64,000 nt of DNA, taken from the NCBI GenBank assembly GCA_947169685.1, contig CAMVQS010000003.1:20023-84022 (forward strand), read 5' to 3'. Of this stretch, positions 1,962 to 21,697 are shown piece after piece. Origin of the DNA: an uncultured Prevotella sp. Its GTDB lineage: Bacteria > Bacteroidota > Bacteroidia > Bacteroidales > Bacteroidaceae. Position numbers and translations under genes: made by a program. The stretch's first letter is position 1, and each line of letters begins with the position of its first letter. The notes beneath the pieces were generated by a model that was given only the letters and a program-made list of their open reading frames with translations, did no database searches and was not told where the DNA came from.

Positions 1962-2030
1962 ATGCGACAGTTGGCCGTATTTTGATGCGACAGTTGGCCG
2001 TATTTTGATGCGACAGTTGGCCTTCTTTTA
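1962..2030. repeat. Three tandem copies of a 23-bp unit (GCGACAGTTGGCCGTATTTTGAT)
   Basis: GCGACAG starts at 1964, 1987 and 2010 (period 23); two diverged copies occur in inverted orientation at about 11617-11663. Confidence 0.85.
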
Positions 2031-2034
2031 CGCA

Positions 2035-2718
2035 TCAAGTAGTAAGCCAGTACGTGCGGAGCAGGTAGAGCAGCAGGAGGTGGAGAGGGTAGAAGGCGTA
2101 GAAGAAGTACTTGCCGAAGGAACCGGTGATGAATCCGCGCTTGCCGTTATACAGCGCCAGCAGGGCGAAGCCCGCTGCCACACCAGGAATATATCGCCTT
2201 GCAATGATGCAAGTACCTAAGAACAACTTCAGCACCTTCTGTTCACGCAGCACGTAGAGCAGCAAGATAAGGCCCACGCCACCTATATTATAATCCACCT
2301 TCAGGACATACGCTGCGAGGAATACCGTTATGAGCGCAAGCGTCTGCCGCATCCAGTTTTCTTTCATATACTCCCAGAGATACAGCGTCAGGAAACCCAA
2401 CAGCAGCGTGAACCCCACGTTGCCGTGCAGCCAGAACTTACTGTTGAGGTGTGCCAATGCCCACGGAGCTTGCGACACAAGGGCAAACACCAGCAGGTTA
2501 CGTCCATATTTCCTGCGGTCATGAGTATGGATGAACCCCTCCACCAGCAAGAAGGCAAACACAGGGAATGCCACACGTCCCACGGTGTGCATCAGCCGGC
2601 ACAGCTCCGGCCATTGGTGAAGCACGGGCAAGTACGATGCCGCATGGTCAATCGCCATTGTCACCATCGCAATGACCTTCAGCCAACTGCCGTTGAGTAT
2701 TTGGTAGTTATTGGACAT
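2035..2718 (-). CDS. TraX family membrane protein (cassette A)
   Basis: MSNNYQILNGSWLKVIAMVTMAIDHAASYLPVLHQW..., TraX motif and multiple TM segments; start moved to internal Met at 2718, which overlaps the upstream gene. Confidence 0.85.
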   Translation of the reverse strand: MSNNYQILNGSWLKVIAMVTMAIDHAASYLPVLHQWPELCRLMHTVGRVAFPVFAFLLVEGFIHTHDRRKYGRNLLVFALVSQAPWALAHLNSKFWLHGNVGFTLLLGFLTLYLWEYMKENWMRQTLALITVFLAAYVLKVDYNIGGVGLILLLYVLREQKVLKLFLGTCIIARRYIPGVAAGFALLALYNGKRGFITGSFGKYFFYAFYPLHLLLLYLLRTYWLTT

Positions 2719-3460
2719 GGGAATCTTTTTTCTTTTTCTCTTTCTTCTTAAACATATTCTTGATGTTATAGAGTATCTTCCCCGTAATAGGGATCTTAAC
2801 CCCTTCCTTCTCAAAGGAACGACAAGGAAGACAATGTCCACAAGGGAATCCCCAGACAGGCTTCAGACACGACCATGTATGCTTTACCACATTTTTGTAT
2901 CCCATAGCATACAGTTCTTCTATTTCCTCCTTCTTCGTTTTATGGTACAACGACTTGGGGAAATAGAAATGTCCGAACAGATTAATAACATCTTGGTCTG
3001 CTCGTGTTTTATCAATCATTAGCACATCGTAATCTGCATCAGGATGTGGAATGAGTAGTGTCTCATCTATTGCTTTGACAATGGTCCCGTTTGGAGAGAA
3101 CTGAAGCCCCATTTCCATCATTAAGTTGTTATGTGCCGCATATTTAGCAAGCCAGTAGTATTGTAGGCTGCTTGTACCTTTTCCAGGAAAAAGGTACATC
3201 CATGAATCAAAGATCTGGTTATTTTTAGCTATATCTTTCTCTTCTATGAGGATAATGTCTGACAATGTTGCACGAGTCTTATTATCTTTTCGCAATAAAT
3301 GGACTATTTTATCCATCGCATGCAGTTCCTGTTGCAAGGATTTCCTTTTTCCTACGATATAATATGGCTGTATGATGCATTCACGACGAGACAGCTCTAC
3401 TATTCGATAGGTGCTGTCTAATCCTCCTGTCCACAATATGTTAATGTGCCTATTCTCCAT
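2708..3460 (-). CDS. PP-loop / 7-cyano-7-deazaguanine synthase (QueC)-like ATPase (cassette A accessory enzyme)
   Basis: 'ILWTGGLDSTYRIVELS' PP-loop; C-terminal 'CLKPVWGFPCGHCLPCRSF' Cys cluster like the QueC zinc site. Confidence 0.7.
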   Translation of the reverse strand: MENRHINILWTGGLDSTYRIVELSRRECIIQPYYIVGKRKSLQQELHAMDKIVHLLRKDNKTRATLSDIILIEEKDIAKNNQIFDSWMYLFPGKGTSSLQYYWLAKYAAHNNLMMEMGLQFSPNGTIVKAIDETLLIPHPDADYDVLMIDKTRADQDVINLFGHFYFPKSLYHKTKKEEIEELYAMGYKNVVKHTWSCLKPVWGFPCGHCLPCRSFEKEGVKIPITGKILYNIKNMFKKKEKKKKDSHVQ

Positions 3461-4772
3461 CTTTATAGACTATGTATTGCTCCAGCATGCCTTCTTCTAT
3501 CTTACGAATATTCTCTCTACGTATGTCTTCATAGCAGACATTGTCTTCTGAACAAATTAAAAGCCTATTACATTGTGGATAATATACGCAGTCTTTACAT
3601 ATTATTTCATCTTTGGGACGTTCTTTGAAACGGTTAATCACCGCTAAATTGTTTTCTTCAGTATTGATATGACCATAGAATTCGCTATCTATGTAGTGCT
3701 CACATTTCCCCAAATATCCATTTGGGGTTATCACAACACTTCTGTCATTATCTGCCATACAGTGATTCACTCTAAATTTCGTAGGAAGTTTCGGTTTGGT
3801 TTTATAATGATAGTTTTTTATAAGTTGTTCTAGCTCCATTCGTTGCTTGTATATTACATTTCGTTCTTCCTGTGTTCGTTTGGTATTTCCTTCTATGTAG
3901 TCAAATAATACATGAGAGTAGATTGTTAAAAAGCTATTCTCGCCAAATCGCTCGTGAAGTTCTCTTACCAGAGTGAACATGTTGTCAATGTTATGCTTAT
4001 CCACATTCAACCGGATAATTACCTTGATTTCGGCAGCAGTTAGTTTTCCAATGTTATCTAACACCTGCTGATAAGCGTTTCCATCCTTATAGATATACCG
4101 CTTACTACGATTATAGATTTCTTCAGTACCATCAAGTGTAATCTGCACTTTTTTTAGTTTCCAAAGTTGCTTGGCACGTTGAATAACATTGTCATCGAAC
4201 AAATAGCCATTACTTACCATAGTGGAAGTCAGTTTAATTCCACTATCCTTCAGTTGCTGGCAAATAATGTCAATAACATGAACATTATATAACGGTTCAC
4301 CCCCAAACCAACGAATATGTATATCATTGTTTTGCTGTCTAACAATGAACTGCGCAACCCGCTTAGCTGTCTCTATGCTCATGTGGATGTGGGCTGCATT
4401 TTTTTCAAAACAGTAAAAACAACGGGCATTACAATCTGAAGTAGGAAGGATAACAAAATTATCCATTCCTGTATTTTTCTTTTCAAAAAGCATTGCCATT
4501 GACTTCACCTGCTTACAAAGTTTTTTGTCATCGTGGTCTTGTGGAACTAAAAACCATAATTCAAATAGTTCATCTAATTCCATGAGGTGCTGAGCCTCTT
4601 CTTTGTTTAGCCATACTAAGCATAGTGTGAGAGTATTATAAATCAACAACCCATCTTCAACATGTTGTTGTATAACATATGTTAACAGACGAAGAGGGAA
4701 TTGGTCTTCTTTTCGTTTTTGCTGTCCAATAATCTTATCTACTATAGTAGTAGGAGGGATAATAATCTGCAT
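3450..4772 (-). CDS. Radical SAM/SPASM peptide maturase (cassette A)
   Basis: CNARCFYCFE (CX3CX2C), 'RWFGGEPLYN', C-terminal CEHY...CKDCVYYPQCNRLLIC SPASM-like cysteines; start chosen as MQIIIPP to match paralog MQIIQPP. Confidence 0.9.
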   Translation of the reverse strand: MQIIIPPTTIVDKIIGQQKRKEDQFPLRLLTYVIQQHVEDGLLIYNTLTLCLVWLNKEEAQHLMELDELFELWFLVPQDHDDKKLCKQVKSMAMLFEKKNTGMDNFVILPTSDCNARCFYCFEKNAAHIHMSIETAKRVAQFIVRQQNNDIHIRWFGGEPLYNVHVIDIICQQLKDSGIKLTSTMVSNGYLFDDNVIQRAKQLWKLKKVQITLDGTEEIYNRSKRYIYKDGNAYQQVLDNIGKLTAAEIKVIIRLNVDKHNIDNMFTLVRELHERFGENSFLTIYSHVLFDYIEGNTKRTQEERNVIYKQRMELEQLIKNYHYKTKPKLPTKFRVNHCMADNDRSVVITPNGYLGKCEHYIDSEFYGHINTEENNLAVINRFKERPKDEIICKDCVYYPQCNRLLICSEDNVCYEDIRRENIRKIEEGMLEQYIVYKDGE

Positions 4773-4773
4773 A

Positions 4774-5805
4774 TTATTCCAAAGCAACTCCACCTAAACC
4801 GACCTCCGAATCGTAAGGAGTAACATAGGCAGAGGGGGTCGTTGTTAAAGCTAATCCAGTAAAGGCTATTCCTCGAACTGTGCCCCTTTCCCAATTACGT
4901 GAATCACTATTATCCAATGTCATTGTCTGTGAATAACAATTACCATTAGAATCCCATACATAAGCTGTTATGGTTTTTCCTCGTAAATCTATAGGGGGAA
5001 CAACTAGATAGGCCGTTAACACATTCTTGGTAGCCAGAGGGGCACTCTTAATTAGTACATATACGAAATTGGTGTTATTCTCTGCTATGAATGGTTGAGA
5101 TTCTGGAGTATGTTTGCCATTCGCATTTTTATGAACATCAAACAAATCAAAGTATCCCTTTTGGGGGAAACCGTTATAATCAATTGCTAATACGACCTTA
5201 CGGTAATCTGCATTAGTTGGAGCATAGCACTGAAATCTTAATATACATGCCATGTTTCTTAGCGAAGCATGGAAAGTTCCATTATCTGCACGTGTGGTGT
5301 CTGTCGCTTCAAAAATATGCTCTCCCAAATGTTCGTGGTTGGTATTAACTGATTGTATTTGAGGTTTGCCGTAATCCCATGGAATCCTATTATAATTTCG
5401 GTTGTAAAAATTAAAAGGCAAGTATGTTGAATACATAATACCATCCTTAGTCATCCATCCTTGCGCTTCAATAAGTACTCCCGATGCTGTTTCCCCTTCT
5501 TTTAATGGTAAAACAAATGGTATTTGATAACCACCGTCGGGGAAAATACCCAAAGTATCCGTATGCTCAAAAAGTATACCAATATTTTGCCCCGTACCAG
5601 TAGTAGTTGCACGGGTTGTAACCAAGGAGTCGTTATTTTGTTCATCTATGGAAGGCTCGAGCTTACTGGAGTCCAAGGGAAGTCTACTGACAATAATGTG
5701 ATCTACACGACTATAACCTGTCCATTCGTCTACATTTGTTGAACACGACACAACAAGACAGATGAACAATTGAGAAACAAAGCAATTTTTAAAATAACGC
5801 CTCAC
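4774..5805 (-). CDS. Fimbrillin-like lipoprotein (cassette A)
   Basis: Lipobox 'LVVSC|S'; 'HTDTLGIFPDGGYQIPF', 'YSTYLPFNFYNRNYNRIPW'; paralogous to 7736-8734; C-term ...DSEVGLGGVALE. Confidence 0.75.
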   Translation of the reverse strand: MRRYFKNCFVSQLFICLVVSCSTNVDEWTGYSRVDHIIVSRLPLDSSKLEPSIDEQNNDSLVTTRATTTGTGQNIGILFEHTDTLGIFPDGGYQIPFVLPLKEGETASGVLIEAQGWMTKDGIMYSTYLPFNFYNRNYNRIPWDYGKPQIQSVNTNHEHLGEHIFEATDTTRADNGTFHASLRNMACILRFQCYAPTNADYRKVVLAIDYNGFPQKGYFDLFDVHKNANGKHTPESQPFIAENNTNFVYVLIKSAPLATKNVLTAYLVVPPIDLRGKTITAYVWDSNGNCYSQTMTLDNSDSRNWERGTVRGIAFTGLALTTTPSAYVTPYDSEVGLGGVALE

Positions 5806-5827
5806 TAAAAAACGGAGTTAATGAATA

Positions 5828-5956
5828 TCAAAGACCATCACAGCTATTTGTTGGGCAATCACCGTTACACTCCTCCTGAGAGGCTGAAAGAATTCCAATA
5901 GTCATGTTCAGCTTAATCTCCTCCATCTCGGGAGTTTCATACATCTTCTTTTCCAT
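5828..5956 (-). CDS. Putative RiPP precursor peptide A (42 aa)
   Basis: Read directly from minus strand: MEKKMYETPEMEEIKLNMTIGILSASQEECNGDCPTNSCDGL*; leader MEKKMYETPEMEEIKL identical to precursor B; immediately upstream of the lipoprotein and rSAM genes. Confidence 0.85.
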   Translation of the reverse strand: MEKKMYETPEMEEIKLNMTIGILSASQEECNGDCPTNSCDGL

Positions 5957-6076
5957 ATTACGTTTTTCTTGTTCGTGCTCCCTGTTCCCTTTAAGGAGCG
6001 GTTATCTTTACTGCGGCCGTGGGAACTCCGACCCATCATTTCTTACATACTGCCATCCACCTCGCGGCCCGAGGTG
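5954..6076 (-). promoter_or_regulatory. Conserved structured 5' leader of precursor A
   Basis: Near-identical to 7467-7590 in inverted orientation; includes hairpin CACCTCG-GGCCG-CGAGGTG and GTTCCC...GGGAAC pairing. Confidence 0.7.
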
Positions 6077-6084
6077 GATATCTT

Positions 6085-6212
6085 GTTCCCACCGTGGGAA
6101 CAGATTGAAAGGTGCCGTGTAAGGGTTCGTTACATACTATGTAAGGCACCCTTACATAGGGGTTAACGACCCGAAAGTCGGTATGTTTCGGTGCGAAAGT
6201 CGGTATGTTTCG
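6085..6212 (-). repeat. Dispersed repeat copy 1 (inverted relative to 63740-63866)
   Basis: Minus strand reads CGAAACATACCGACTTTCGCACCGAAACATACCGACTTTCGGGTCGTTAACCCCTATGTAAGG...GTAACGAACCCTTACACGGCACCTTTCAATCTGTTCCCACGGTGGGAA, matching the copy at 63.7 kb. Confidence 0.9.
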
Positions 6213-6251
6213 CCGGAACAGGTCAAGACCTCAAGCGACAACCCTGAAACA

Positions 6252-6418
6252 TCGATGTACACAGCGTTTGAGGTATAGGGGGTGTTGGCATAAGACCCCC
6301 CATACACCTCCCATACACCCCCCATACACTCCATAGATCTGTCAACATGAGGTCTATGGGGGGTGTATGTGAGATCTTACCATAACACCCCCTATACCTC
6401 AAACGCTGTGTACATCGA
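6252..6418. repeat. MITE-like nested inverted repeat (35-bp outer arms, 15-bp inner arms)
   Basis: Outer arms 6252-6286 / 6384-6418 are perfect reverse complements (TCGATGTACACAGCGTTTGAGGTATAGGGGGTGTT); inner arms 6312-6326 / 6355-6369; C-rich 11-bp CATACAC-CCCC tandem repeats within. Confidence 0.9.
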
Positions 6419-6532
6419 CATTTCAGACGGCCATAGGAGTATGTGGGGTGTTTCTCAAAATTCTGATTCACTCCCAGCCCCCTGTGTTTCAATAAACAAT
6501 GCCATGCACCGAGAGAAGTATGTTGAAAAAGT

Positions 6533-6625
6533 GTTTTTTAATTAAATTCTAACCTGGCAAACCATCTTTTTATCACTTTTTCCCGAAATTGTTTGGCGGT
6601 TCAGAAAAGTATTCATAACTTTGCC
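6533..6625 (+). repeat. 93-bp direct repeat, copy 1, containing promoter TTTG(6592-6595)-N20-TAACTTTG(6616-6623)
   Basis: Near-identical to 7361-7453; drives the downstream TA pair. Confidence 0.85.
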
Positions 6626-6651
6626 AACAAGAAAACAACAAAAGAGATATT

Positions 6652-6939
6652 ATGACAGCTTTAGCAAAGAAAATATCAGAAACGCCTATGGCCCCATACA
6701 CAGAACTTTTGCGAAGTATGAAGCCGCAAGAGATACGCATTGTTGTTACCTTTTTGCAAGAGGCATTGCAAGAGGCAGAAGGGGTAAATCCAGAAGCAAA
6801 TGTCTCTGAGATTATCCGCAACAAGTTTAAAGGCCTTACCATCTCGCAGGAGACCAAGGATCTCGTGCGAGACCTTTCGTTGTCTTCAGAAGAAATGGGT
6901 GATGAAAGAACACAATACATTTTAGGGTATAGACAATGA
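6652..6939 (+). CDS. Putative antitoxin of PIN-type TA pair
   Basis: 95 aa small protein overlapping the PIN-domain ORF start by 4 nt; no recognisable domain, assigned by position. Confidence 0.55.
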   Translation: MTALAKKISETPMAPYTELLRSMKPQEIRIVVTFLQEALQEAEGVNPEANVSEIIRNKFKGLTISQETKDLVRDLSLSSEEMGDERTQYILGYRQ

Positions 6940-7349
6940 CAAAGGTTTTTCTTGATACAAACATCTTGATGGACTTTGTTGAAAATCGTGAAAGACGAGA
7001 ATATGCTGAGACCATCATTGAGCTTGGGAAAACAGGTGTAATACAGCTTTATGCCTCATATCTGTCGTATGCCAACATGGGGTATGTCCTACGTCACCGT
7101 AGCCAAGAAGAGCGCTACCGTATGATTAATAATGCTCGTAAAATTGCAACTGTGTTGCCATGTGACTCAGACCAGCTTGACAGCACTTTGGAAAAGCCTG
7201 TGAAAGACTACGAAGACATGCTGCAGTATCAATGCGCGTTGGCAGCAGGATGTGATGTCATAGTAACAAATAACAAACGTGACTTTTTCGAGTTTTGCAA
7301 GTTACCATTTCTTACTTCGGAAGAATTCCTGTTGCAGATTGATTTTTGA
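6936..7349 (+). CDS. PIN-domain toxin (VapC-like)
   Basis: 'KVFLDTNILMDFVENRERR', 'YEDMLQYQCALAAGCDVIVTNNKRDF' PIN acidic motifs. Confidence 0.8.
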   Translation: MTKVFLDTNILMDFVENRERREYAETIIELGKTGVIQLYASYLSYANMGYVLRHRSQEERYRMINNARKIATVLPCDSDQLDSTLEKPVKDYEDMLQYQCALAAGCDVIVTNNKRDFFEFCKLPFLTSEEFLLQIDF

Positions 7350-7360
7350 GCGTATGGCCG

Positions 7361-7453
7361 TTTTTTAATTAAATTCTAACCTGGCAAACCATCTTTTTAT
7401 TACTTTTTCCCGAAATTGTTTGGCTGTTCAGAAAAGTATTTGTACCTTTGCCC
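7361..7453 (+). repeat. 93-bp direct repeat, copy 2, containing promoter TTTG(7420-7423)-N20-TACCTTTG(7444-7451) for cassette B
   Basis: Matches 6533-6625 with a handful of mismatches; Bacteroidota -33/-7 consensus. Confidence 0.85.
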
Positions 7454-7466
7454 TCGAAATGTGTAC

Positions 7467-7590
7467 ACCTCGGGCCGCGAGGTGGATGGCAGTATGTAAA
7501 AAATGATGGGTCGGAGTTCCCACGGCCGCAGTAAAGATAACCGCTCCTCAAAGGGAACAGGGAGCCAGAAAAAAGTATAAACGTAATATG
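7467..7590 (+). promoter_or_regulatory. Conserved structured 5' leader of precursor B
   Basis: Mirror of 5954-6076; hairpin CACCTCGGGCCGCGAGGTG at 7467-7485. Confidence 0.7.
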
Positions 7591-7719
7591 GAAAAGAAGA
7601 TGTATGAGACTCCCGAGATGGAGGAGATTAAGCTGAAGATGGAAAAGAGCCTGATGGGATGTGTTGAAGTTGGTACGACTTCTGATGTGGATTGTGATGA
7701 ATTTTGTGAAGAAGACTAA
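7588..7719 (+). CDS. Putative RiPP precursor peptide B (43 aa)
   Basis: MEKKMYETPEMEEIKLKMEKSLMGCVEVGTTSDVDCDEFCEED*; leader identical to precursor A, divergent Cys-containing core; absent from supplied ORF track. Confidence 0.85.
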   Translation: MEKKMYETPEMEEIKLKMEKSLMGCVEVGTTSDVDCDEFCEED

Positions 7720-7735
7720 TGATTCATTCTGTTGA

Positions 7736-8734
7736 ATGAGATTGTCGTTGACGGTATTGAGACCTATTTCCTTGTGTCTGTTTTGCGTTATGTTTGTCAT
7801 AGCGTGTAACAGTCAAGAGGATTCATACACTTTGGTGAAAGAGATTAAATTGACCATTGAAGACATGGAAATAGGTGAACTAGATGATTCTATTTCTGCA
7901 AACGAAATTATTACTCGTTCAATCTTAGAAAATGACGGATCAAAAGTTTCATATCTTTTTGAAGATCATGACACCATCGGTATTTTTCCCGAGGGAGGTT
8001 TTGAGATCCCTTTTATAGTTGAAATACCAGATTTAGTGCCAACAAAAGAGGTTACTCTTATTGCGAATGGTTGGCGTACTAAGGATGGAGTGAAGTATTG
8101 CTCATATCTGCCTTTTGACCGATACAACTTTGACTACTCTAATCGTGTTCCATGGAGATTTGCAGGAATAAGACAAAATGGAAACAAAGACGGAGTAAAA
8201 ACAGGTTCTAAGAATTCTCTATTCTTGGCAACACGCCCTACGGAAACGACTCCAGAAGGGCTCTTTAATGCGGCTTTTACACATATGGGGACTATTGTAC
8301 GCGCTAATTACAAACTTGCAACTGTAGGGACCTTTAAAAAGGCATGCATTGTAGCGCCAACGGCTCGATTTGCCTTAAATGGCACTTATGATCTTTATGC
8401 AGACGGACAACCTTTTACACCAGGAGAAATGAGTAATCATTTCGACGTCATGCTGGATAACTTAACAACAACTGCAAGTTCCACCAACGTTTATGTTTAT
8501 TATATTCTATCACCAGATATCAGCAATGCTAGCGGTGACCAGTTGATAGGCTACATATGGGATGACAACGGCATACGATACAGAGGGGTTTATACGTTTT
8601 CCAAAGCTACAGTATGGAAGCGGAATGGCTTTGCCACCATTAGTTTTACAATGGAACGAGAATCAAACAACCTTGATGTTTATCAAAATGAATTCAGTAC
8701 GGAATCGGAATTTAACGGTGTCGCTATAGAATAA
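7736..8734 (+). CDS. Fimbrillin-like lipoprotein (cassette B)
   Basis: Lipobox 'FVIAC|N'; 'EDHDTIGIFPEGGFEIPF', 'YCSYLPFDRYNFDYSNRVPW' shared with cassette A paralog; C-term ...STESEFNGVAIE. Confidence 0.75.
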   Translation: MRLSLTVLRPISLCLFCVMFVIACNSQEDSYTLVKEIKLTIEDMEIGELDDSISANEIITRSILENDGSKVSYLFEDHDTIGIFPEGGFEIPFIVEIPDLVPTKEVTLIANGWRTKDGVKYCSYLPFDRYNFDYSNRVPWRFAGIRQNGNKDGVKTGSKNSLFLATRPTETTPEGLFNAAFTHMGTIVRANYKLATVGTFKKACIVAPTARFALNGTYDLYADGQPFTPGEMSNHFDVMLDNLTTTASSTNVYVYYILSPDISNASGDQLIGYIWDDNGIRYRGVYTFSKATVWKRNGFATISFTMERESNNLDVYQNEFSTESEFNGVAIE

Positions 8735-8747
8735 TAGAATTTTCTCT

Positions 8748-10067
8748 ATGCAAATTATTCAACCCCCATCTCCACTAATAGATGGTTTACTGAAATCTCA
8801 GAAATATCATATAGGAACAGAATACCGATTGATAACGTATGCTATAAAGCTACTGGTACCAGAAGGCGTTTTGCTTTACAATTTACTGACCAAATGCATT
8901 GTATTATGCCAACAAGAAGACTTGAAGGCAGCTTCAGCGGATAATCCGCTCATACAATATTGGTTTTTAGTTCCAGAAAAACACGATGACCAGCGACTCT
9001 GTGAACAGATAAGAAGTGCTCTACAACTGATTCAAAAAAAAGAGAATTTCATTTCTGGGTATTGTATATTTACGACTACTGTTTGTAATGCACGTTGTTT
9101 CTATTGTTTTGAACGTGGTAGCAAGGAACGGACGATGAATGATGAAATAGCTGCAAAGGTGGTTGACTATATCGCACAGAATGCATGTGGCCATCAAGTG
9201 CGCTTTCGCTGGTTTGGTGGAGAACCTCTCTACAACATGCAGGCTATTGATAATATATGCGATGGACTTAAGAGACGAGGTGTTGATTATGTTTCTAAGA
9301 TGGTTAGCAATGGATATTTGTTTAATGAAAACGTAATCAAAAGAGCTGCGACATTATGGAAGTTGGATAAAATCCAGATAACCCTTGACGGAACAGAAGA
9401 AAAATACAATCGTATTAAAAACTATAAGGATAATAGAGAGAGTGCCTATCTGCGAGTAATGAAAAATATCGGCTTGCTGTTGGAATATGGTATCCGGGTC
9501 GTTATTCGCCTGAACATTGATGCCATCAACATTGAGGATATGACTTGTCTGGTTCATGAGCTACATACTCGCTATGGTGGAAATAAATTGCTTTCAGTTT
9601 ATTCACGTACTTTGTTTGAAAATAAAGGATGTGTTCGCAAAAGAAGCAATGAGGAGCGAGCACTTCTTTGTAATCAGCAAATAGAATTGGAAAAACTTAT
9701 TTACGGATACAATTTGAATGAAGCCCCATCAAATTTACGAAAAGTTTGGGTGAATGCCTGCATGGCAGACACCTCGCATACTATCACAATATTACCAGAC
9801 GGAAAACTGGGAAAGTGTAATGATTATTTGGAGAGTCACTTTGTCGGAACGCTCGACGAGGGAATCACAGACGAAAAGATGGTGCAAGCATTTACGCTTC
9901 AACGGGAGCCATTAGCCGATTGTAGGTCTTGTGCTCTTCAACCAGATTGCCTTAGATTACAGCTATGCATGGAAAAAGAACACTGCTACGTTGAAGAAAG
10001 AAGAATCAAGGTGTTTCGTATTCAGCAAATGATGTTGAAAACATTTGAGAAAAACAAGGCAGTATGA
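8748..10067 (+). CDS. Radical SAM/SPASM peptide maturase (cassette B)
   Basis: CNARCFYCFE, 'RWFGGEPLYN', 'MVSNGYLFNENVIKRA', SPASM cysteines CNDY...CRSCALQPDCLRLQLC. Confidence 0.9.
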   Translation: MQIIQPPSPLIDGLLKSQKYHIGTEYRLITYAIKLLVPEGVLLYNLLTKCIVLCQQEDLKAASADNPLIQYWFLVPEKHDDQRLCEQIRSALQLIQKKENFISGYCIFTTTVCNARCFYCFERGSKERTMNDEIAAKVVDYIAQNACGHQVRFRWFGGEPLYNMQAIDNICDGLKRRGVDYVSKMVSNGYLFNENVIKRAATLWKLDKIQITLDGTEEKYNRIKNYKDNRESAYLRVMKNIGLLLEYGIRVVIRLNIDAINIEDMTCLVHELHTRYGGNKLLSVYSRTLFENKGCVRKRSNEERALLCNQQIELEKLIYGYNLNEAPSNLRKVWVNACMADTSHTITILPDGKLGKCNDYLESHFVGTLDEGITDEKMVQAFTLQREPLADCRSCALQPDCLRLQLCMEKEHCYVEERRIKVFRIQQMMLKTFEKNKAV

Positions 10068-10933
10068 GAACAATTCTTTCATACAGAATAGCAGGAATAG
10101 ATTTTGCAATAAATATAGAAAAAGAGGCTATTGAACAAAATCTGCTAAATCACTACAACTCTTTTAGAATAGAAGGAACAAAAGAATTTGATTTTGTACT
10201 GGACATCGTCAACCGACAGGAAAGAATGGAAGGTGAACAGATTCTTGGCGGTGACAAGATAAGAAGCCAGATATATCGGGTACAGAACGGTTACTATAAG
10301 GAGGCGTTAGGCAGAGAGAGGAGAAGAGTGTTGTATGCAATATATTTAAATAGCAATTATAGCTATGGAAGGTTGAAAATAAATCAGCATACTCGTACTA
10401 TATTGAACGAAGCCATTATGACCATGTTTTTTGCTGCAATGGCCAAATTCCACGTAATAAAAATTCATGCATCGTCTGTCATTAAGGATGGCAAAGCCAT
10501 TCTCTTTCATGCGCCATGTGGTACAGGTAAGAGTACGCATAGTCAGCAATGGATGAAGGCATTTCCTGATGCGGAACTGTTGAATGATGATGGACCCGTA
10601 GTACGCGTATGGCCTGACGGAAGGGTGATTGCATACGGCAGTCCTTGGAGTGGGAAAACTCCTTGCTACAAAAACCTATCGGCACCTGTAGCTGCATTTG
10701 TACGTATCAACAGGGCTAAAGAAAACAAGATTCATCGCCTAAGACTTGTGGAGGCATATGCATCATTACTTCCTTCCTGTACTGGAGTAAAGTGGAATGA
10801 TGATATACGCAATTATACACATGAAACCATGCAAAAGGTAATATCAACCGTTCCCTTTTATCAATTGGACTGCCTACCCAACGAGGACGCTGCAAGGGTA
10901 TGTGCAGCGGAAGTATTGAAACTACATGAATAG
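10064..10933 (+). CDS. HPr kinase/phosphorylase-like (HprK-like) ATPase (cassette B accessory enzyme)
   Basis: 'IKIHASSVIKDGKAILFHAPCGTGKSTHSQQW' Walker A, 'LLNDDGPVVRVW', 'AYGSPWSGK'; start overlaps rSAM stop. Confidence 0.75.
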   Translation: MRTILSYRIAGIDFAINIEKEAIEQNLLNHYNSFRIEGTKEFDFVLDIVNRQERMEGEQILGGDKIRSQIYRVQNGYYKEALGRERRRVLYAIYLNSNYSYGRLKINQHTRTILNEAIMTMFFAAMAKFHVIKIHASSVIKDGKAILFHAPCGTGKSTHSQQWMKAFPDAELLNDDGPVVRVWPDGRVIAYGSPWSGKTPCYKNLSAPVAAFVRINRAKENKIHRLRLVEAYASLLPSCTGVKWNDDIRNYTHETMQKVISTVPFYQLDCLPNEDAARVCAAEVLKLHE

Positions 10934-11612
10934 CAATAACTACCAAATACTGAGTGGAAGCTGGCTGAAGGTCATCGCGATGGTGACGATGGCGATTGAC
11001 CATACGGCATCGTACCTGCCTGTGCTTCACCAATGGCCGGAACTGTGTTGGCTGATGCACACTGTGGGACGTGTGGCATTCCCCGTGTTTGCCTTCTTGC
11101 TGGTGGAGGGATTTGTCCATACCCATGATCGCAGGAAGTACGGACGGAACCTACTGGTACTTGCCTTGGTGTCACAGACTCCGTGGGCATTGGCACACCT
11201 CAACAGTAAGTTCTGGCTGCACGGCAACGTGGGGTTCACGCTGCTGTTGGGTTTCCTGACGCTGTATCTCTGGGAGTATATGAAAGAAAACTGGATGCGG
11301 CAGACGCTTGCGCTCATAACGGTATTCCTCGCAGCGTATGTCCTGAAGGTGGATTATAATATAGGTGGCGTGGGCCTTATCTTGCTGCTCTACGTGCTGC
11401 GTGAACAGAAGGTGCTGAAGTTGTTCTTAGGTACTTGCATCATTGCAAGGCGATATATTCCTGGTGTGGCAGCGGGCTTCGCCCTGCTGGCGCTGTACAA
11501 TGGCAAGCGCGGATTCATCACAGGTTCCTTCGGCAAGTATCTTTTCTACGCCTTCTACCCTCTCCACCTCCTGCTGCTCTACCTGCTCCGCACATACTGG
11601 CTTACCACTTGA
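10926..11612 (+). CDS. TraX family membrane protein (cassette B)
   Basis: Nearly identical to the cassette A TraX (about 8 differences over ~228 aa by eye). Confidence 0.85.
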   Translation: MNSNNYQILSGSWLKVIAMVTMAIDHTASYLPVLHQWPELCWLMHTVGRVAFPVFAFLLVEGFVHTHDRRKYGRNLLVLALVSQTPWALAHLNSKFWLHGNVGFTLLLGFLTLYLWEYMKENWMRQTLALITVFLAAYVLKVDYNIGGVGLILLLYVLREQKVLKLFLGTCIIARRYIPGVAAGFALLALYNGKRGFITGSFGKYLFYAFYPLHLLLLYLLRTYWLTT

Positions 11613-11616
11613 TGCG
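11591..11616 (+). repeat. 26-bp direct repeat CACATACTGGCTTACCACTTGATGCG, copy 1 (left of hipBA)
   Basis: Identical to 13339-13364. Confidence 0.9.
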
Positions 11617-11664
11617 GAGGAAACACGGCCAACTATCGCATCAAAACACGGCCAACTGTCATAA

Positions 11665-12918
11665 TCAGGACTTCACTCGGCTGTCTAATCGTTGGGCGAA
11701 TCGGTTTTGTTCTGATGGGGATATTTTGAGTTCATTGGCAACTTTCCTCCAATCCCTGACTGCCGTTTTTGTCTTCTCTATGATTCTTGCTGCTGTGTCT
11801 GGAGAAAGGAAATAGTCTTTACAGGCATCTTGCAACTTCTCGAGACTTGCTTCATTCGAGTTGTTATTGATGAGCAGGCTTTGATTGTTACTGTCAGTCG
11901 GGTTAAGGTCATAGGCTGGGGATAATGTCCAACCTTTCTTCGTCAAGAGAAATCCGTGGTTTCGGAAATGATCGTCACTATTGCCCACACAAATGTTAAA
12001 TACCACACGTCGAAATAGCTCTTCAAGATTGTCATCGACATTGACACAATTGGAAAGAATAAAATCTACAATATCCAAATAGCCATGTCCTGTTTCGAAG
12101 TTGTCTCCGTCCTTTAAGCCTGTCATAGTCATGGCAGAAGCAAAATGGATCCGACGGCATGCTTCTGTTCTATCGAATCGTCTTGAGAGCAGTGCATGAT
12201 ATCTACCAACCGGCAGTATTGCCGTTTCTGCTGCGTTTATGGATGCAGACTTTGCCAAGACATGACAGAAATGCTCCCATAGAGCTACATCATACAGGTC
12301 ATTACGTGAAGGAAACTTTGCAATCCACAAACCTCCGTTTTCGTCGGTTACATTGGCTTTCGGTCGAGCACCGCCCAAAGATGTGCCTGGGCGTTCTAAT
12401 TGCCTGATCCATTTCTTTTCAGGCAATTCATTAGCCTCCTCGCTCTTCTCATATTCCTGAGCTATTGCTGTCAGCTCTTTTACTGAGGTTAATGGCGGTA
12501 CAGACAATCTATTATCCGAATTGACAAATTCTCCATTAGGATCCTTCTTAAATCGAAGGCCTCCCATACGGGTGTAATCATCAATACCTTTTAGGTAGTC
12601 AAAAGAGTAAAGTGACCTTACTGCTCTCTTTTCCTCTGCTGCCTCAACCTGCTCTTTCCTGTCCAGCAAACGACGTCCCCATCTGTCAGGAAGTGTATCA
12701 GAGATACAGCCAAAAACATGTTCCTCTTGAGAATACTGGAAGCCTGCATAATTGCCGATTTCATCACTCAAGACAATGGCACTATGATTCTTCAACCATT
12801 CTTTTTCAAAACAGAAACCGTAAGTACCATTACCACGCAGACGTTCATACGTCAGACAGCCAACCAACTCGGGGTTGTCTAGCCAGTCGAAATCGGCATA
12901 CACATAGAGTTTTTCCAT
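11665..12918 (-). CDS. hipA: HipA-family type II toxin-antitoxin kinase
   Basis: 'LGGARPKANVTDENGGLWIAKFPSRND', 'ALLSRRFDR', 'NICVGNSDDHFRNHGFLL' HipA motifs. Confidence 0.92.
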   Translation of the reverse strand: MEKLYVYADFDWLDNPELVGCLTYERLRGNGTYGFCFEKEWLKNHSAIVLSDEIGNYAGFQYSQEEHVFGCISDTLPDRWGRRLLDRKEQVEAAEEKRAVRSLYSFDYLKGIDDYTRMGGLRFKKDPNGEFVNSDNRLSVPPLTSVKELTAIAQEYEKSEEANELPEKKWIRQLERPGTSLGGARPKANVTDENGGLWIAKFPSRNDLYDVALWEHFCHVLAKSASINAAETAILPVGRYHALLSRRFDRTEACRRIHFASAMTMTGLKDGDNFETGHGYLDIVDFILSNCVNVDDNLEELFRRVVFNICVGNSDDHFRNHGFLLTKKGWTLSPAYDLNPTDSNNQSLLINNNSNEASLEKLQDACKDYFLSPDTAARIIEKTKTAVRDWRKVANELKISPSEQNRFAQRLDSRVKS

Positions 12919-12921
12919 AGC

Positions 12922-13242
12922 TTAATCTTTTTTCGAGGCTCGTTCACGATGTTTCAACTCCAAGTCTTGAAGTGTTCTCCCGAGAGGATCGTCCTTGGCC
13001 AGCGATAAGATATCGTCATCTAACTGCAAAGCATAGAGAATACGCAGATAAATACCTATAGCGACGGTAGGCATACCTTTCTCCACACGCATCACGGTCA
13101 GCTCAGAGCACGTGGCCCTTTCTGCAATTTGGGCAACACTAAGATTACGACGCAGACGAGCCAGACGTATCTGTTCGCCGACAATCTGCATCTTTTGCTC
13201 CAATCTCCTTGGTAATTTCGTACTACGTGTTGCCTTTGTCAT
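12922..13242 (-). CDS. hipB: HipB-like HTH antitoxin/autorepressor
   Basis: XRE-type HTH 'IRLARLRRNLSVAQIAERATCSELTVMRVEKG' directly upstream of hipA. Confidence 0.88.
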   Translation of the reverse strand: MTKATRSTKLPRRLEQKMQIVGEQIRLARLRRNLSVAQIAERATCSELTVMRVEKGMPTVAIGIYLRILYALQLDDDILSLAKDDPLGRTLQDLELKHRERASKKD

Positions 13243-13251
13243 ATTAATATG

Positions 13252-13299
13252 CTATCATTTAATGATGCAAAGATACAGAAAAACTATATTAAATGATAG
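13252..13299 (-). promoter_or_regulatory. hipBA promoter/operator
   Basis: Inverted repeat CTATCATTTAAT (13252-13263) / ATTAAATGATAG (13288-13299) flanking a minus-strand TATCTTTG box. Confidence 0.75.
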
Positions 13300-13338
13300 G
13301 TTGCTGACATATTGTTATAGATTATTAACACAAAGGTC

Positions 13339-13364
13339 CACATACTGGCTTACCACTTGATGCG
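13339..13364 (+). repeat. 26-bp direct repeat, copy 2 (right of hipBA)
   Basis: Identical to 11591-11616; lies over the 3' end of the beta-barrel gene. Confidence 0.9.
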
Positions 13365-14096
13365 TAGAAGAAGGCCGGCGTTGTAAACGGTCTTGGGGGC
13401 TATGTCGGCAGAGGCGAAGAGGCATTTGAGCTGGCCGCGTGCTCCGATGGTGACATTGGGCAGGACGCTGAGCTCGGCCGTGAGGCTGACAGGCACATAA
13501 GGTGCAGTATAGTTGTCCTTCTGTTTCTCAGACTTCACGTAGGCATGCTGATAGATATTGCTATAGGTGTCGCCCTCGGCAATGGCCTCAGCATTATAGG
13601 CAGTAGTGCGGGTGTTACTGCCCTTACTCATAAGGAGGCCTACTCCCGTACCTACATAGACATTGAAGGGGCTTGTGCGCCCCTTGAGCCAAAGAGCAGA
13701 CAGGGCATATTCTGCAGTGAATTGGCCGGCAGCTATGTGCTGTCGGTTTTTGTTTTGCAGGCAGTCGGCCTGTGTGGTGAGCGTGGTCTGATGACCGCCA
13801 AGCATGAAGTTAGGGTCGGTGAGAACGGTAGAGGTTATCTTGTCGTTGTGCTCACGCAGGAGGAGATAGCCAGCCTCTGCACTGAAGCGCAGGGAAGGCA
13901 AGTACTGCCAGGTGACACCTGCTGCCACCTCGGGCGAGAGGGTCGGTGTGCCTTCGTAGAGGGGGCTGCTGATGCCGCTATAGGTTCCAAGGGCTCCACT
14001 GGCATATAGCGACCATCGGCCGCCTGCCTGCTGCGCTTGCAGCGGCAGGCAGGCGATGAGCCCAAAGACTATGTTGAGAAAATACTGTCTTTTCAT
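13350..14096 (-). CDS. Outer membrane beta-barrel protein
   Basis: Signal peptide, alternating strands, terminal aromatic '...GLLLRIKW'. Confidence 0.6.
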   Translation of the reverse strand: MKRQYFLNIVFGLIACLPLQAQQAGGRWSLYASGALGTYSGISSPLYEGTPTLSPEVAAGVTWQYLPSLRFSAEAGYLLLREHNDKITSTVLTDPNFMLGGHQTTLTTQADCLQNKNRQHIAAGQFTAEYALSALWLKGRTSPFNVYVGTGVGLLMSKGSNTRTTAYNAEAIAEGDTYSNIYQHAYVKSEKQKDNYTAPYVPVSLTAELSVLPNVTIGARGQLKCLFASADIAPKTVYNAGLLLRIKW

Positions 14097-14110: not shown

Positions 14111-16126
14111 TTATTGAACAGAAGCGGCATAGGGCTGCGTGCGGATGTTTTCTGTAGGCATGAACACGCCCGTATCGCTGTCGTAGTTATAGAAACGGAA
14201 GACACGTCCAGCACTCATATCGGTGCCTGTGGCTGAGACGGGCCAGCCGTAAAGTGCGCGGCAGGAGCTCAGCGTGGGGTCGTTGGGTTTGGCATCGACG
14301 GCAGAGATAAAGAACACATACTTATATGTGTCTTCGTAATAGGTGAACTGCATGTCGGTCCATTCGCAGACGTTACGCACCACAAGTGAATAATGACCGT
14401 CGATAACGACGGTGCCTGTCACCATGAGCTTGGCAGGAGCCTTGTTGCTGACCGTCCACTGGTAGTTGTAGCGCTGGGTGCTTCCCGATACGCTCTTGTT
14501 GTCGCTACAGATAACAGGAACCGTGGGCAAGTCGTTGTCGTCCATGCGCATGAGCTGTCTGGGAGTGACGGACACCTCGCAGAGCATGTGCTGGAAGGCG
14601 GCATTGAGCGTGGCATCGGCATTGATGGCCTGGAAGAGCGTTGGCGTCAGGTACATATACTCATAGGTGGTATGCTCGTCAGTGGAGTGTACGGGACAGG
14701 GATCGGGGAAGGTGACGCCGTTCTCCAGGTTGAGCAGGGTTTCCATCTGGTCGTTGTTCTGACTGAGTTTTTCCAGAATCTGGGCAAGCTCAGTATTACG
14801 GGTTGCAGTGATGGCATCGTTCAGCGTGGTGGTACAGGTGCCGAGCGTGGTCACGACATTGGTGTTGAGGGCTGAAATGAGTTCGCCGTTAGAACCGATA
14901 GCTGCAATGATGAGCTGTCCCTGGGTGTTGACGGCACTGACCATGTTGCCTCCTTGTGTGTTAACAGCTGTCTGCAGGTTGCCGATAGCTGTAATGACAT
15001 CGGTCTTGAGGGTGTTGACAGCAGTGATATTGTCATTGATCTTGCTGGTGATGGTGCTGGTCGAAGTGCTGATAGCAGTCTCTACGCTTGAGAATCCCTC
15101 GAGCAGGTTGCTATTGATGGTGCCCAGCGTGGTATTGATGGTGCCCAGCGTGGTATTGGTGACCTCGAGTTTGGCTTCGATGCCTTCACCCATATTGCCG
15201 ATTTTGACAATGACATTGCCGAGTCCTGTCTCAATGATAGTACTCATGGCATCGAGCTTGGCCTGCAGCGAGGCGTTATGGTCCTGCAGTGCCGCTACGA
15301 GGTTGGTGGTCTGTGCCTTGATGGCAGTTTCGATAAGTTGTCCGTTCTGGTCGAGGTGCAGGGCGATGAGGTCACCGTTGTTGTTGATGGCATAGACGAT
15401 GCGGTCGCCGTTGTCCTGCAGGGTGCTGTTAAGTCCGGCAAAGCCTTCAAGGATAGTATTGTTGAGTGACTGGAAGTTCTGGGCCAACGCATCTGTCAAT
15501 GAGTCAAGCATGCCGCCGTTGGCTTCGAGCTTAACGCTGATGTTACTTCCTATATCACCAATCTTGACAACGATATTGGCCAGTCCTGTCTCGATGATGG
15601 TATTTATGGCATCGAGCTTACTCTGCATGGAGGCGTTATTGTCCTTGAGCGTCTGTATCAGAAGGCCAACCTGTGCCTTGATAGTGCCGTCGATGAGACG
15701 TCCGTTCTCGTCGAGGTGCAGAGCGATGAGGTCACCGTTGCTATTGAGTGCATAGACGATGCGGTCGCCATTGTCCTGTATGACGGTCTTGAGTGACTTG
15801 AAACCGTCGAGCAGCGTGACGTTGATGTTGTTGAGGGTGTTATTGACATTGTTGAACCCTTCGCCAATGGTGGCACTGAGTATCTGAATGTCGTTAGTAC
15901 TAACATCAACTGAGATCTTGATGTCAGCCAATCCTGTCTCCAGCAGTTTGTTGAGGGCATCCATGCGCTCCTCAAGGCTACTGGTAAGGTTATTGACGGC
16001 ATCCACCAGTTTCTGGTAGTCGTTAATGTAGGTTCGCGCTCCATAGTCGATAGACGGTGAGAACTCCTCAGTACATGCGGCTAATGTGAGCAAGCCACAA
16101 ATCAGTAAACAATAAATCTTCTTCAT
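14111..16126 (-). CDS. Lipoprotein with long coiled-coil and internal ~120-aa repeats
   Basis: 'LLTLAAC|T'; repeated 'QDNGDRIVYA(L/I)N(S/N)NGDLIALHLD(E/Q)NG(R/Q)LI...KLDA..TIIETGL.N(I/V)(V/I)VKIG'. Confidence 0.75.
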   Translation of the reverse strand: MKKIYCLLICGLLTLAACTEEFSPSIDYGARTYINDYQKLVDAVNNLTSSLEERMDALNKLLETGLADIKISVDVSTNDIQILSATIGEGFNNVNNTLNNINVTLLDGFKSLKTVIQDNGDRIVYALNSNGDLIALHLDENGRLIDGTIKAQVGLLIQTLKDNNASMQSKLDAINTIIETGLANIVVKIGDIGSNISVKLEANGGMLDSLTDALAQNFQSLNNTILEGFAGLNSTLQDNGDRIVYAINNNGDLIALHLDQNGQLIETAIKAQTTNLVAALQDHNASLQAKLDAMSTIIETGLGNVIVKIGNMGEGIEAKLEVTNTTLGTINTTLGTINSNLLEGFSSVETAISTSTSTITSKINDNITAVNTLKTDVITAIGNLQTAVNTQGGNMVSAVNTQGQLIIAAIGSNGELISALNTNVVTTLGTCTTTLNDAITATRNTELAQILEKLSQNNDQMETLLNLENGVTFPDPCPVHSTDEHTTYEYMYLTPTLFQAINADATLNAAFQHMLCEVSVTPRQLMRMDDNDLPTVPVICSDNKSVSGSTQRYNYQWTVSNKAPAKLMVTGTVVIDGHYSLVVRNVCEWTDMQFTYYEDTYKYVFFISAVDAKPNDPTLSSCRALYGWPVSATGTDMSAGRVFRFYNYDSDTGVFMPTENIRTQPYAASVQ

Positions 16127-16138
16127 ATTCTTATAGTT

Positions 16139-17125
16139 TTAGTTATCATTGGGGTTAGTAGGTTCCATGAGGCCCGTGTCACCATCGTAAGTGGTAGTGG
16201 TACCGCCTGATTCCCAATCGGCATAGAGCACCTGACTACTCAGTCGTAGCGACTGCTCGTCGAGCAAGAGCGACACCTCGGTACACAGTCCTGAACGTAG
16301 CTGGATATTGTCGAGGGAGTATTTCACGGGCTTACCATCGATGGTCAAGCGGATAGTGAGGGTGCCAGGCGATGCCGTAGGCAACACGAGCCACTCCGTG
16401 TATGCATAGTGGGTGCCGAAGGCCTCGGTCAGTTCCTCGTCAATAACGGAAGAGAGGCCATTGGTGCCTGTCGTGACGATTTCTCCCGTCTGAGCATTGT
16501 AATGTCCCGATGTGGCGTAGCAAGTGCCTTCGATGGCTGCTGCCGTCCACTGCGGCTTGTGTGTAACGGCCTCGTTGTAGGCTGTGGAGAACTTAACGTT
16601 TGTCTGCACACGAATCTTCGCCTTGATATGCTGCAGGATGAAACGCACATTGGGTCGTGCCTTGCTGATGTTGGTCTTCCACGAGGTATAGAGGTTGTCT
16701 ATGTCTGTACCATCGTTGGGGCAAGTCAGCGGAATATTGGTAACATCGAATGAGGGACTGCCGTCATAGGGGAAATAGGCCATGGCCTGCCACGGCTGGT
16801 CAGTCAGCACAAGTCGGCTTGGGGCTATCCATTTCTGAGCTGTCATCTCGCCAGAGGACGTATAGACCACGTTGTTCTGCTTGATGTCAGCGGTATTGCC
16901 CTGTCCGGTGACAAAGACTCCCACCTGTGTCCCACTATCAAAGTAGCCTCCTGGCAACACCTGACCAGCGCGTGTCTCGTCGTCAATGCCCACTGTTGCA
17001 CTGATGGTCATCTCTACCTGTTCGGCATCAGAGTTGCTTGTGCAGGCAGCTGTCATCGTCATCAGTGCGATGACGATTGCAATTGACAATTGACAATTGA
17101 TAATTGATAATTGATATTTTTTCAC
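16139..17125 (-). CDS. Fimbrillin family lipoprotein (GTG start as given in ORF track)
   Basis: Lipobox 'MTAAC|T', 'AMAYFPYDGSPSFDVTNIPLTC', 'LQHIKAKIRV'; start codon reads GTG. Confidence 0.7.
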   Translation of the reverse strand: MKKYQLSIINCQLSIAIVIALMTMTAACTSNSDAEQVEMTISATVGIDDETRAGQVLPGGYFDSGTQVGVFVTGQGNTADIKQNNVVYTSSGEMTAQKWIAPSRLVLTDQPWQAMAYFPYDGSPSFDVTNIPLTCPNDGTDIDNLYTSWKTNISKARPNVRFILQHIKAKIRVQTNVKFSTAYNEAVTHKPQWTAAAIEGTCYATSGHYNAQTGEIVTTGTNGLSSVIDEELTEAFGTHYAYTEWLVLPTASPGTLTIRLTIDGKPVKYSLDNIQLRSGLCTEVSLLLDEQSLRLSSQVLYADWESGGTTTTYDGDTGLMEPTNPNDN

Positions 17126-17161
17126 TTTTAACTCTTAACTCTAAATTCTAAACTATGTCCT

Positions 17162-18130
17162 CTATTCGAGGATTACCTGTTCCTTATCGTCGTCAATGAA
17201 GTCACGGATAGTAACCGACTCCACCGTCATGCGGTTCTGCGAGAGCTTCAGGTTAAAGGTGTAATACTTGTTGCTCTCGAAAGCACCGGCATAGGTGTAT
17301 TTGACAGAGAACTCTATGCCATCGACAGTAGCGTAGAACGTCAGCTGTTTGTTGGCGGCATTGCGTAGCGGGATAAATAGCATCTCGCCCAACTCGGCAC
17401 TGGTGTTCAGGCCCTGCGTCTTCTCAACATTGATAGCCTTCTGTATGAGATTACCCACGGCAACATCCGACAGCTCGTTAGTCAGGCTGTTGAGGGTAGC
17501 CGAAGTGCCGATGGCCTCACCTTTCATGGCCATGTGGGTGATGTAGATGTACTGTCCCGACTGGTGGCGGCTGTAGTCGCCCGTGTTCAGATTCAGCATG
17601 ATTTTCGAAGCGATGCGCTGCATGTAAAGATAGACGCCTGTACCTGATCCGCTGCCCATGTTACCACGACGAATGGGGTCGCCATTATATTCGGGGTTGG
17701 GGTGCATGGTGGTCTGCCAGGGCACACACTTCCAGTCAATGGCGGTAGTAACGGGGATGGCAGCAGGGTCAATGCCCTCGGTATAGGGATGATAGGCCGA
17801 CACGGCAGCATCGTAGTCGATGAGGGCAATACCTCTCGACGATGTCCAGTGATAGTAGTTGTTGGAGCTATCATAGGTATAGGGCACGTTTCGGTCCTGA
17901 TAGAAACGATGATTACCGTCGGCATCTTGCGTGCTGACACCAATGGTAGCACCATTACCGAAACCATAGTAGGCGCGTGTTATCGGCTCGGTGCTGATGG
18001 AAGCATCCATCTCCACACTGGCAATGCGCAGCATCTCCACAGCATTGCCGTCCTGTTCGTCGTTGGAGCAGGCGGTAAATGCCATGAATGCCATAAGCAC
18101 AAGTCCTATCTTTATTCTACGTTTCATCAT
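17162..18130 (-). CDS. Fimbrillin family lipoprotein
   Basis: Lipobox 'MAFTAC|S', 'VSAYHPYTEGIDPAAIPV'. Confidence 0.75.
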   Translation of the reverse strand: MMKRRIKIGLVLMAFMAFTACSNDEQDGNAVEMLRIASVEMDASISTEPITRAYYGFGNGATIGVSTQDADGNHRFYQDRNVPYTYDSSNNYYHWTSSRGIALIDYDAAVSAYHPYTEGIDPAAIPVTTAIDWKCVPWQTTMHPNPEYNGDPIRRGNMGSGSGTGVYLYMQRIASKIMLNLNTGDYSRHQSGQYIYITHMAMKGEAIGTSATLNSLTNELSDVAVGNLIQKAINVEKTQGLNTSAELGEMLFIPLRNAANKQLTFYATVDGIEFSVKYTYAGAFESNKYYTFNLKLSQNRMTVESVTIRDFIDDDKEQVILE

Positions 18131-18151
18131 TTTCTACATGTCACTAATTAG

Positions 18152-20076: not shown

Positions 20077-20077
20077 C

Positions 20078-21694: not shown

Positions 21695-21697
21695 CGG

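Follow-up and report, generated by a model that had tools for sequence, protein, structure and literature searches.

What is made by a mirror-image pair of operons that share one gene order and differ in a single enzyme? The question is raised by an island in a 64,000-nucleotide stretch of DNA (the window) from an uncultured Prevotella sp. (assembly GCA_947169685.1, contig CAMVQS010000003.1, positions 20,023 to 84,022), whose genome is available as a 2.59 Mb draft that is 82% complete. According to the listing of open reading frames (ORFs), the island consists of two divergent operons, A (2035-5956, minus strand) and B (7588-11612, plus strand), which lie on either side of a spacer of roughly 1.6 kb and point away from it. 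In both, a small peptide with a YxxP leader is followed by a fimbrillin-like lipoprotein, a radical S-adenosylmethionine (rSAM)/SPASM enzyme, an accessory enzyme and TraX; the accessory enzyme is QueC-like in operon A and HprK-like in operon B. The answer favoured here, which is considered rather probable, is that the operons represent two satellite cassettes of a ribosomally synthesized and post-translationally modified peptide (RiPP) system that resembles the linear polyphosphorylated peptides (LPPs), is decorated with an rSAM enzyme and is served in trans from elsewhere in the genome. The features of the island are as follows.

2035-2718, minus strand: traX A, a TraX-family membrane protein (PF05857, E 4.4e-38; 93.7% DNA identity to 10929-11612)
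2708-3460, minus strand: QueC-like PP-loop ATPase with an intact PP-loop (WTGGLDST) and a Cys tetrad (PF06508, 21.6 bits)
3450-4772, minus strand: putative rSAM/SPASM peptide maturase A (PF04055, E 5e-14; TIGR04463, 139.5 bits, cut-off 525)
4774-5805, minus strand: fimbrillin-like lipoprotein A with a GTG start (32% identity to lipoprotein B)
5828-5956, minus strand: precursor peptide A with a YxxP leader, three core Cys, and Ser at Y+18 and Y+20
5957-6076, minus strand: conserved 5' untranslated block A (113/120 identical to block B)
7466-7587, plus strand: conserved 5' untranslated block B (aligned to block A)
7588-7719, plus strand: precursor peptide B with the same leader as A, three core Cys and no Ser at Y+18 to Y+20
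7736-8734, plus strand: fimbrillin-like lipoprotein B (likeness to lipoprotein A and relatives)
8748-10067, plus strand: putative rSAM/SPASM peptide maturase B (PF04055, E 8e-13; 42% identity to A)
10064-10933, plus strand: HprK-like kinase (AlphaFold2 pLDDT 85.9; Foldseek matches to PEPCK and HPr kinase)
10926-11612, plus strand: traX B (PF05857, E 2.2e-37)

The start of traX A is probably the ATG at 2718, the listed ORF beginning at 2841. Since neighbouring genes abut or overlap inside both operons, each side looks like a single transcription unit.

A strong bioinformatic case can be made that the cassettes modify their peptides. Small ORFs within 4 kb of an rSAM gene were scored for the leader, over positions Y-3 to Y+10 only, in 81 loci: the window and 80 related rSAM loci, which are the best 80 of 203 relatives found in a scan of named genomes. 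The scan returned 35 small ORFs, compared with 1.0 expected from shuffled ORFs at the same threshold; shuffled ORFs were used because opposite-strand decoys were found to hold real precursors. One row was removed by eye as spurious, which left 34 YxxP peptides in 30 of the loci. All 34 carry a core Cys, i.e., beyond Y+16 (32/32 when the window is left aside), compared with only three of 31 orphan YxxP peptides of the genus (Fisher p 2e-15, a value that overstates independence, as the peptide rows are related). The orphan set was hand-picked; it omits two peptides of a genome that has the rSAM (G331), a 112-residue candidate (L136), four peptides adjacent to the hub operons described below, later finds and matches judged spurious. 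Ser at Y+18 to Y+20 is present in 29/34 rSAM-linked and 24/31 orphan peptides, the latter count being biased, since some orphan rows came from a profile that spans the Ser region; the Cys count is less affected. The stark contrast in Cys fits an rSAM enzyme that acts on this residue. The original prediction, made from the letters of the window, had proposed two divergent operons of one gene order that make a RiPP, the peptide being cyclised by the rSAM enzyme. The ORFs and the family matches confirm the operons, and the Cys association supports a RiPP system whose precursor carries Cys and is modified by the rSAM.

The radical SAM core motif CxxxCxxC is present in the cassette enzymes. The string CNARCFYC and the C-terminal Cys are conserved in seven rSAMs, a pattern that we take to indicate SPASM. 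None of the NCBIfam maturase families was reached at its cut-off by the cassette rSAMs, the best being TIGR04463 with 139.5 and 130.3 of 525 bits. By sequence comparison, the two enzymes belong to an unnamed family of gut and rumen Bacteroidales and Clostridia, as the best 80 relatives come mainly from these two groups and largely from rumen and gut. Close homologues (E < 1e-100) were found in four genomes including the host, all of the same genus, when 100 relatives were searched. The nearest solved structures according to profile matches are 5wgg, presumably CteB, and SkfB (6efn). CteB and SkfB form thioethers; by analogy, the cassette rSAM would cross-link the core Cys, most likely as thioethers. 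The thioether-forming maturases of sacti- and ranthipeptides (CteB, SkfB, PapB) likewise combine radical SAM and SPASM with Cys-bearing cores. However, the cassettes differ from them in the YxxP leader, in the HprK- and QueC-like partners and in that no cut-off of a named family was reached.

Recognition and removal of the leader require a look beyond the island, because neither a PqqD-type protein, i.e., a discrete RiPP recognition element (RRE), nor a leader protease was found in the window cassettes. Within 7 kb of the rSAM, a PqqD-type protein is encoded in 63 of the 81 loci, an HprK-like protein in 28, an S24-like protein in 22 and an NTP_transf_5-like protein in six, and in most relatives the PqqD gene directly follows that of the rSAM. 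The fuller clusters L033, L041 and L048 keep together what is split over three contigs in the host: two PqqDs with rSAM and HprK, joined by an S24-like protein in L041 and L048. The host genome also has two PqqDs, on contigs C22 and C95. The C22 protein shares 51-56% identity with the proteins it matches best, which are PqqDs behind related rSAMs, compared with about 30% with those of the hub class. The C95 protein belongs to this hub class and is encoded in an operon of HprK, S24-like, PqqD and ATP-binding cassette (ABC) genes, whose S24-like protein was recognized by a home-made hidden Markov model (E 3.7e-34). Fourteen hub loci, from as many genomes, were scanned, and each has the trio of HprK, S24/S26-like protein and PqqD, often joined by NTP_transf_5 and an ABC exporter; a gene for a YxxP peptide lies between those for PqqD and HprK in L217 and L218. 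At the level of the order, leader hits were obtained in 9 of 198 genomes, and all nine have a PqqD, compared with 127 of the 198 overall. We infer that the window cassettes are served by PqqD and the hub in trans. The C22 PqqD (L215:141-413) lies only 140 bp from the edge of its contig and has no HprK or S24-like partner there; a further rSAM cassette may be located in the adjoining unassembled gap.

The maturation would then proceed as follows. The YxxP leader (Y6-P9) would be bound by PqqD-type proteins encoded elsewhere, those of C22 (rSAM class) and C95 (hub class), and the core would be cross-linked by the cassette rSAM. The accessory enzyme would add another modification: phosphorylation of a Ser or Thr by the HprK-like protein in operon B, and the ATP-driven conversion of a carboxylate to an amide or nitrile by the QueC-like protein in operon A. 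The hub protease would remove the leader near Y+15/16, after which the core would be exported. The fimbrillin-like lipoprotein could be the partner of the peptide at the surface or anchor it there, and TraX might acylate either of the two.

The hub and the leader resemble the gene set of the LPP RiPPs (Popov et al., Nat Commun 2026, PMC13381572), which comprises a YxxP leader, a discrete PqqD-type RRE, an HprK-like kinase, a signal-peptidase-like protease, an NTP transferase and an ABC exporter. In LPPs, the kinase acts on core Ser3, with a consensus Ser at Y+18, and the class is called restricted to Bacillota; the main text of that paper holds zero occurrences of 'bacteroid' or 'radical sam', and nothing was seen in it on QueC-like enzymes, TraX or lipoproteins (PMC13381572). 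Both window precursors carry the YxxP leader, an HprK-like kinase is found in cassette B and on C95 (cassette A has none), and the Ser at Y+18 to Y+20 that most YxxP peptides have (in the window, peptide A but not B) lies near the LPP position. However, LPP precursors sit in the same cluster as their enzymes, whereas the YxxP peptides here are scattered, and the window cassettes are not classed as LPP members because they encode no discrete RRE of their own; a protease is missing from them, too. Neither the PqqD encoded outside the window nor the likeness to LPPs was part of the original prediction. Paeninodin-like lasso peptides also combine a [Y/W]xxP leader with a PqqD-type B1 protein, an HprK-like kinase and an NTP transferase (PMC13381572), all of which have counterparts here; the lasso macrolactam cyclase and B2 protease gave no Pfam match among the ten cassette proteins of the window, to which this search was confined. 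The SynChlorMet cassette (TIGR04248-TIGR04250) gave weak PqqD-, HprK- and rSAM-related matches, but all of them are far below cut-off. It has a different leader and occurs in different organisms. A literature search on SynChlorMet, HprK, PqqD and S24 returned nothing relevant.

It could be argued that the cassettes are self-contained: the N-terminal residues of the rSAM (about 100) would recognize the leader, the cassette alone would mature and display its peptide, and the PqqDs and hub would serve orphan peptides only. A recognition domain is found at the N-terminus of many rSAM enzymes of RiPP pathways, and 17 of the 80 related rSAM loci (the window aside) have no PqqD nearby. This alternative appears quite unlikely in view of the PqqD gene directly behind the rSAM in most relatives, the retention at C22 of a PqqD of exactly that class, and a cassette from which leader protease and exporter are missing.

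The favoured reading has, nevertheless, several points against it. Some of the 17 loci lie on cut contigs, and the absence of a nearby PqqD among relatives may not mean that it acts in trans. The co-occurrence of leader and PqqD is modest (hypergeometric p 0.017, phylogeny not corrected). The S24/S26 assignment of the proposed protease is weak, as a relative reaches PF00717 only at E 0.0079, under the cut-off. The host genome is 82% complete, so further parts may be missing. Peptides were detected in only 30 of the 81 loci, a number that is likely to be too low, given the many cut contigs and the variation among leaders; the condition named as refuting the original prediction, that rSAM homologues routinely occur without such peptides, thus holds in part. 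Peptide B has no Ser at Y+18 to Y+20 though its operon has the kinase, and peptide A shows the reverse. Finally, neither the lipoprotein nor TraX was found in any of the 80 related rSAM loci.

As to the accessory enzymes, the HprK-like protein shows a partial match to TIGR04352 (E 7.5e-6), and in Bacteroidales loci, HprK-like proteins encoded next to related rSAMs share 35-40% identity with it. The QueC-like protein stays below the QueC cut-offs (PF06508, 21.6 of 22 bits; TIGR00364, 17.3 of 150.3 bits). Its PP-loop and Cys tetrad, which we take to be of the Zn type and to carry their usual meaning, are kept in all seven aligned sequences, its own included (TGGLDST, with TGGMEST in one). Six relatives were found in the 397 other genomes of the genus that were searched. 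Near the rSAM, a profile restricted to the QueC part detects such a protein in two of the 81 loci, the window and L052. In L052 it is fused to PqqD (PF05402, E 2.2e-9) and lies beside an rSAM and a precursor; in L231 a relative follows a YxxP peptide by 117 nt and adjoins a hub. Because an RRE is fused to one relative and a peptide is adjacent to another, the QueC-like enzyme is a credible candidate for a new peptide tailoring enzyme. Four relatives occur in loci without a YxxP peptide or hub (L232-L235), contexts that hint at a second, non-peptide role; at least three of the four have glycosyltransferase, LicD or capsule-type genes by eye. The predicted chemistry, action on a peptide carboxylate to give an amide or nitrile, is drawn by analogy. 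QueC uses ATP to turn a carboxylate into an amide and then a nitrile, chemistry of the kind also represented by ToyM, and PesC is the peptide nitrile synthetase of the nitrilobacillins (PMC13060819). This ATP-dependent chemistry provides a precedent, but PesC is asparagine-synthetase-like and not QueC-like. No paper that joins QueC-like or PP-loop enzymes with PqqD-type RiPPs was returned by a literature search. Taken together with the HprK-like fold, the idea of the original prediction that both accessory proteins tailor the peptide is plausible.

A different picture emerged for the leader and the lipoprotein. Neither window lipoprotein reaches PF13149; the label 'fimbrillin-like' was chosen because relatives in L135 and L144 match this family (E 1.1e-9 and 4.5e-13; two of the seven relatives scanned). 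A two-row alignment gave no usable AlphaFold2 model of lipoprotein A (pLDDT 39.7). With the window lipoproteins as queries, 12 relatives were found in 10 other genomes among the 398 searched. For nine of the 12, a YxxP peptide is encoded upstream, ending -11 to +48 nt from the lipoprotein gene, compared with 4/50 other genes in a background scan that was slightly less sensitive. The cassette-type rSAM was absent from all six tested genomes that have the peptide and a fimbrillin-like relative. These two observations make it likely that the pair of peptide and lipoprotein genes came first and that rSAM, accessory enzyme and TraX joined it here. In three genomes (the host and two others), roughly 7-10 YxxP peptides are scattered per genome, mostly without an rSAM, and many of them precede lipoproteins. 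The leader is therefore neither specific to the cassette gene set nor tied to the rSAM; on this point the original prediction is not supported in the form given. Many orphan peptides start 6-24 nt after large proteins that end in a '...GVYIVNGKKVVVK' tail, presumably a type IX secretion system (T9SS)-like signal. A protein with such a tail and a YxxP peptide directly behind it form a recurrent pairing in the genus (L149, L152, L155-L157, L160, L162-L164, L167 and L169).

These neighbourhoods allow another explanation, namely that YxxP peptides are mainly companions of surface proteins, e.g., in capping or assembly, the rSAM cassette being a specialized, cross-linked version. The frequent peptide upstream of fimbrillin-like relatives and the orphans behind T9SS-like tails speak for it. 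It is regarded as rather unlikely, given that the leader co-occurs with PqqD/HprK/protease/ABC operons, the signature of leader-guided maturation, and that some YxxP peptides lie within these operons. A broader form of the satellite reading is put forward only tentatively: a genome-dispersed Bacteroidales RiPP system in which the hub would serve about ten scattered YxxP peptides at surface-protein genes and plug-in cassettes would add chemistry, either rSAM cross-links with an RRE class of their own or amides or nitriles made by a QueC-like enzyme (RRE-fused in one species). The window would then hold two plug-ins with exchangeable accessory genes.

TraX itself is a firm match (PF05857, 131.8 and 129.5 bits, cut-off 25), and the family was detected in 24 of 200 genomes of the genus, the host included. 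At the other TraX loci returned, no rSAM, PqqD, HprK or lipoprotein was found within 1.5 kb, and TraX as a linked partner elsewhere was rejected. Since lipoprotein and TraX are missing from the 80 related loci, the maturation role once proposed for them is unsupported by comparison; both appear peculiar to the cassettes of the host genome, and the case for their roles is weak. The predicted co-occurrence of leader, fimbrillin, SPASM-rSAM and TraX was found as a full set only in the host genome within the sample, whereas its core (YxxP peptide, rSAM, RRE and kinase) is widespread by homology.

How the twins arose is a separate matter. Their ends are near-identical: the 5' untranslated regions agree at 113/120 positions (94%), 17 of the first 18 leader residues are the same, and the two TraX genes are identical at 641/684 positions (94%). 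The codon differences in TraX, 30 synonymous and eight non-synonymous, suggest that both copies are under selection. Over the 40 nt beyond TraX, 33/38 positions agree, and thereafter identity falls to 59%. In between, the cassettes diverge: leader DNA is conserved to codon 18 and core DNA at 30/63 positions; the lipoproteins are 62% identical in DNA and 32% in protein, the rSAMs 60% and 42%. This 60% is background, as the QueC and HprK genes, which are unrelated, reach 59.5% when aligned in this way. The original prediction had read near-identical ends, diverged middles and differing accessory enzymes as cassette exchange; the pattern itself was confirmed. The QueC- and HprK-like genes are non-homologous, so some exchange took place. 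Exchange of whole cassettes is one of two possible origins. Leader and 5' block occur in only two copies in the host genome, and no third cassette with the same ends was found in 397 other genomes of the genus.

The other possible origin, given here a little less than an even chance, is an old inverted duplication whose middles diverged while gene conversion kept the ends alike, without exchange of whole cassettes; it is compatible with any functional reading. The conserved ends form inverted repeats with blocks of 94-95%, natural conversion tracts, and no third cassette is known from the genomes above. A quick tree placed rSAM A, but not rSAM B, in a supported clade (96) together with 18 further rSAMs of Bacteroidota; the separate origin suggested by it was dropped after an approximately unbiased test did not reject the two as sisters (p 0.73). 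Even under duplication, the accessory gene at least was swapped. The 5' untranslated region as a structured RNA was rejected, as it folds no better than shuffled sequences (z -0.64) and has no Rfam match.

The spacer and the flanks contain further elements, one of them inside the island:

6652-7349, plus strand: PIN-domain-like toxin/antitoxin pair (by eye), between 93-nt direct repeats at 6533-6625 and 7360-7452

The stretch 6533-7452 is probably an insertion outside the peptide system. Its repeats are 95% identical to each other and carry what we take to be a Bacteroidetes-type promoter pattern, and the insertion looks to have duplicated the promoter of precursor B. Upstream of precursor A, the spacer holds an imperfect inverted repeat (6244-6426; 76-nt arms, 86%, 31-nt loop, C/G-rich runs). 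A HipA/HigA-like pair (11591-13376) adjoins traX B; as 29-38 nt from the 3' end of traX recur beyond the pair, it looks as though it had entered the gene at its stop codon. Downstream of the island lies a lipoprotein array (14111-22582), fimbrillin-like by eye.

The finding would extend to gut and rumen Bacteroidales the LPP-type set of leader, RRE, kinase and protease, which the main text of PMC13381572 describes as restricted to Bacillota. It offers a testable substrate for an unnamed family of rSAM maturases, points to peptide modification as a new role of QueC-like PP-loop enzymes and connects YxxP peptides with surface lipoproteins. The division into satellites and a hub would explain why such systems can be overlooked by genome mining of single loci.

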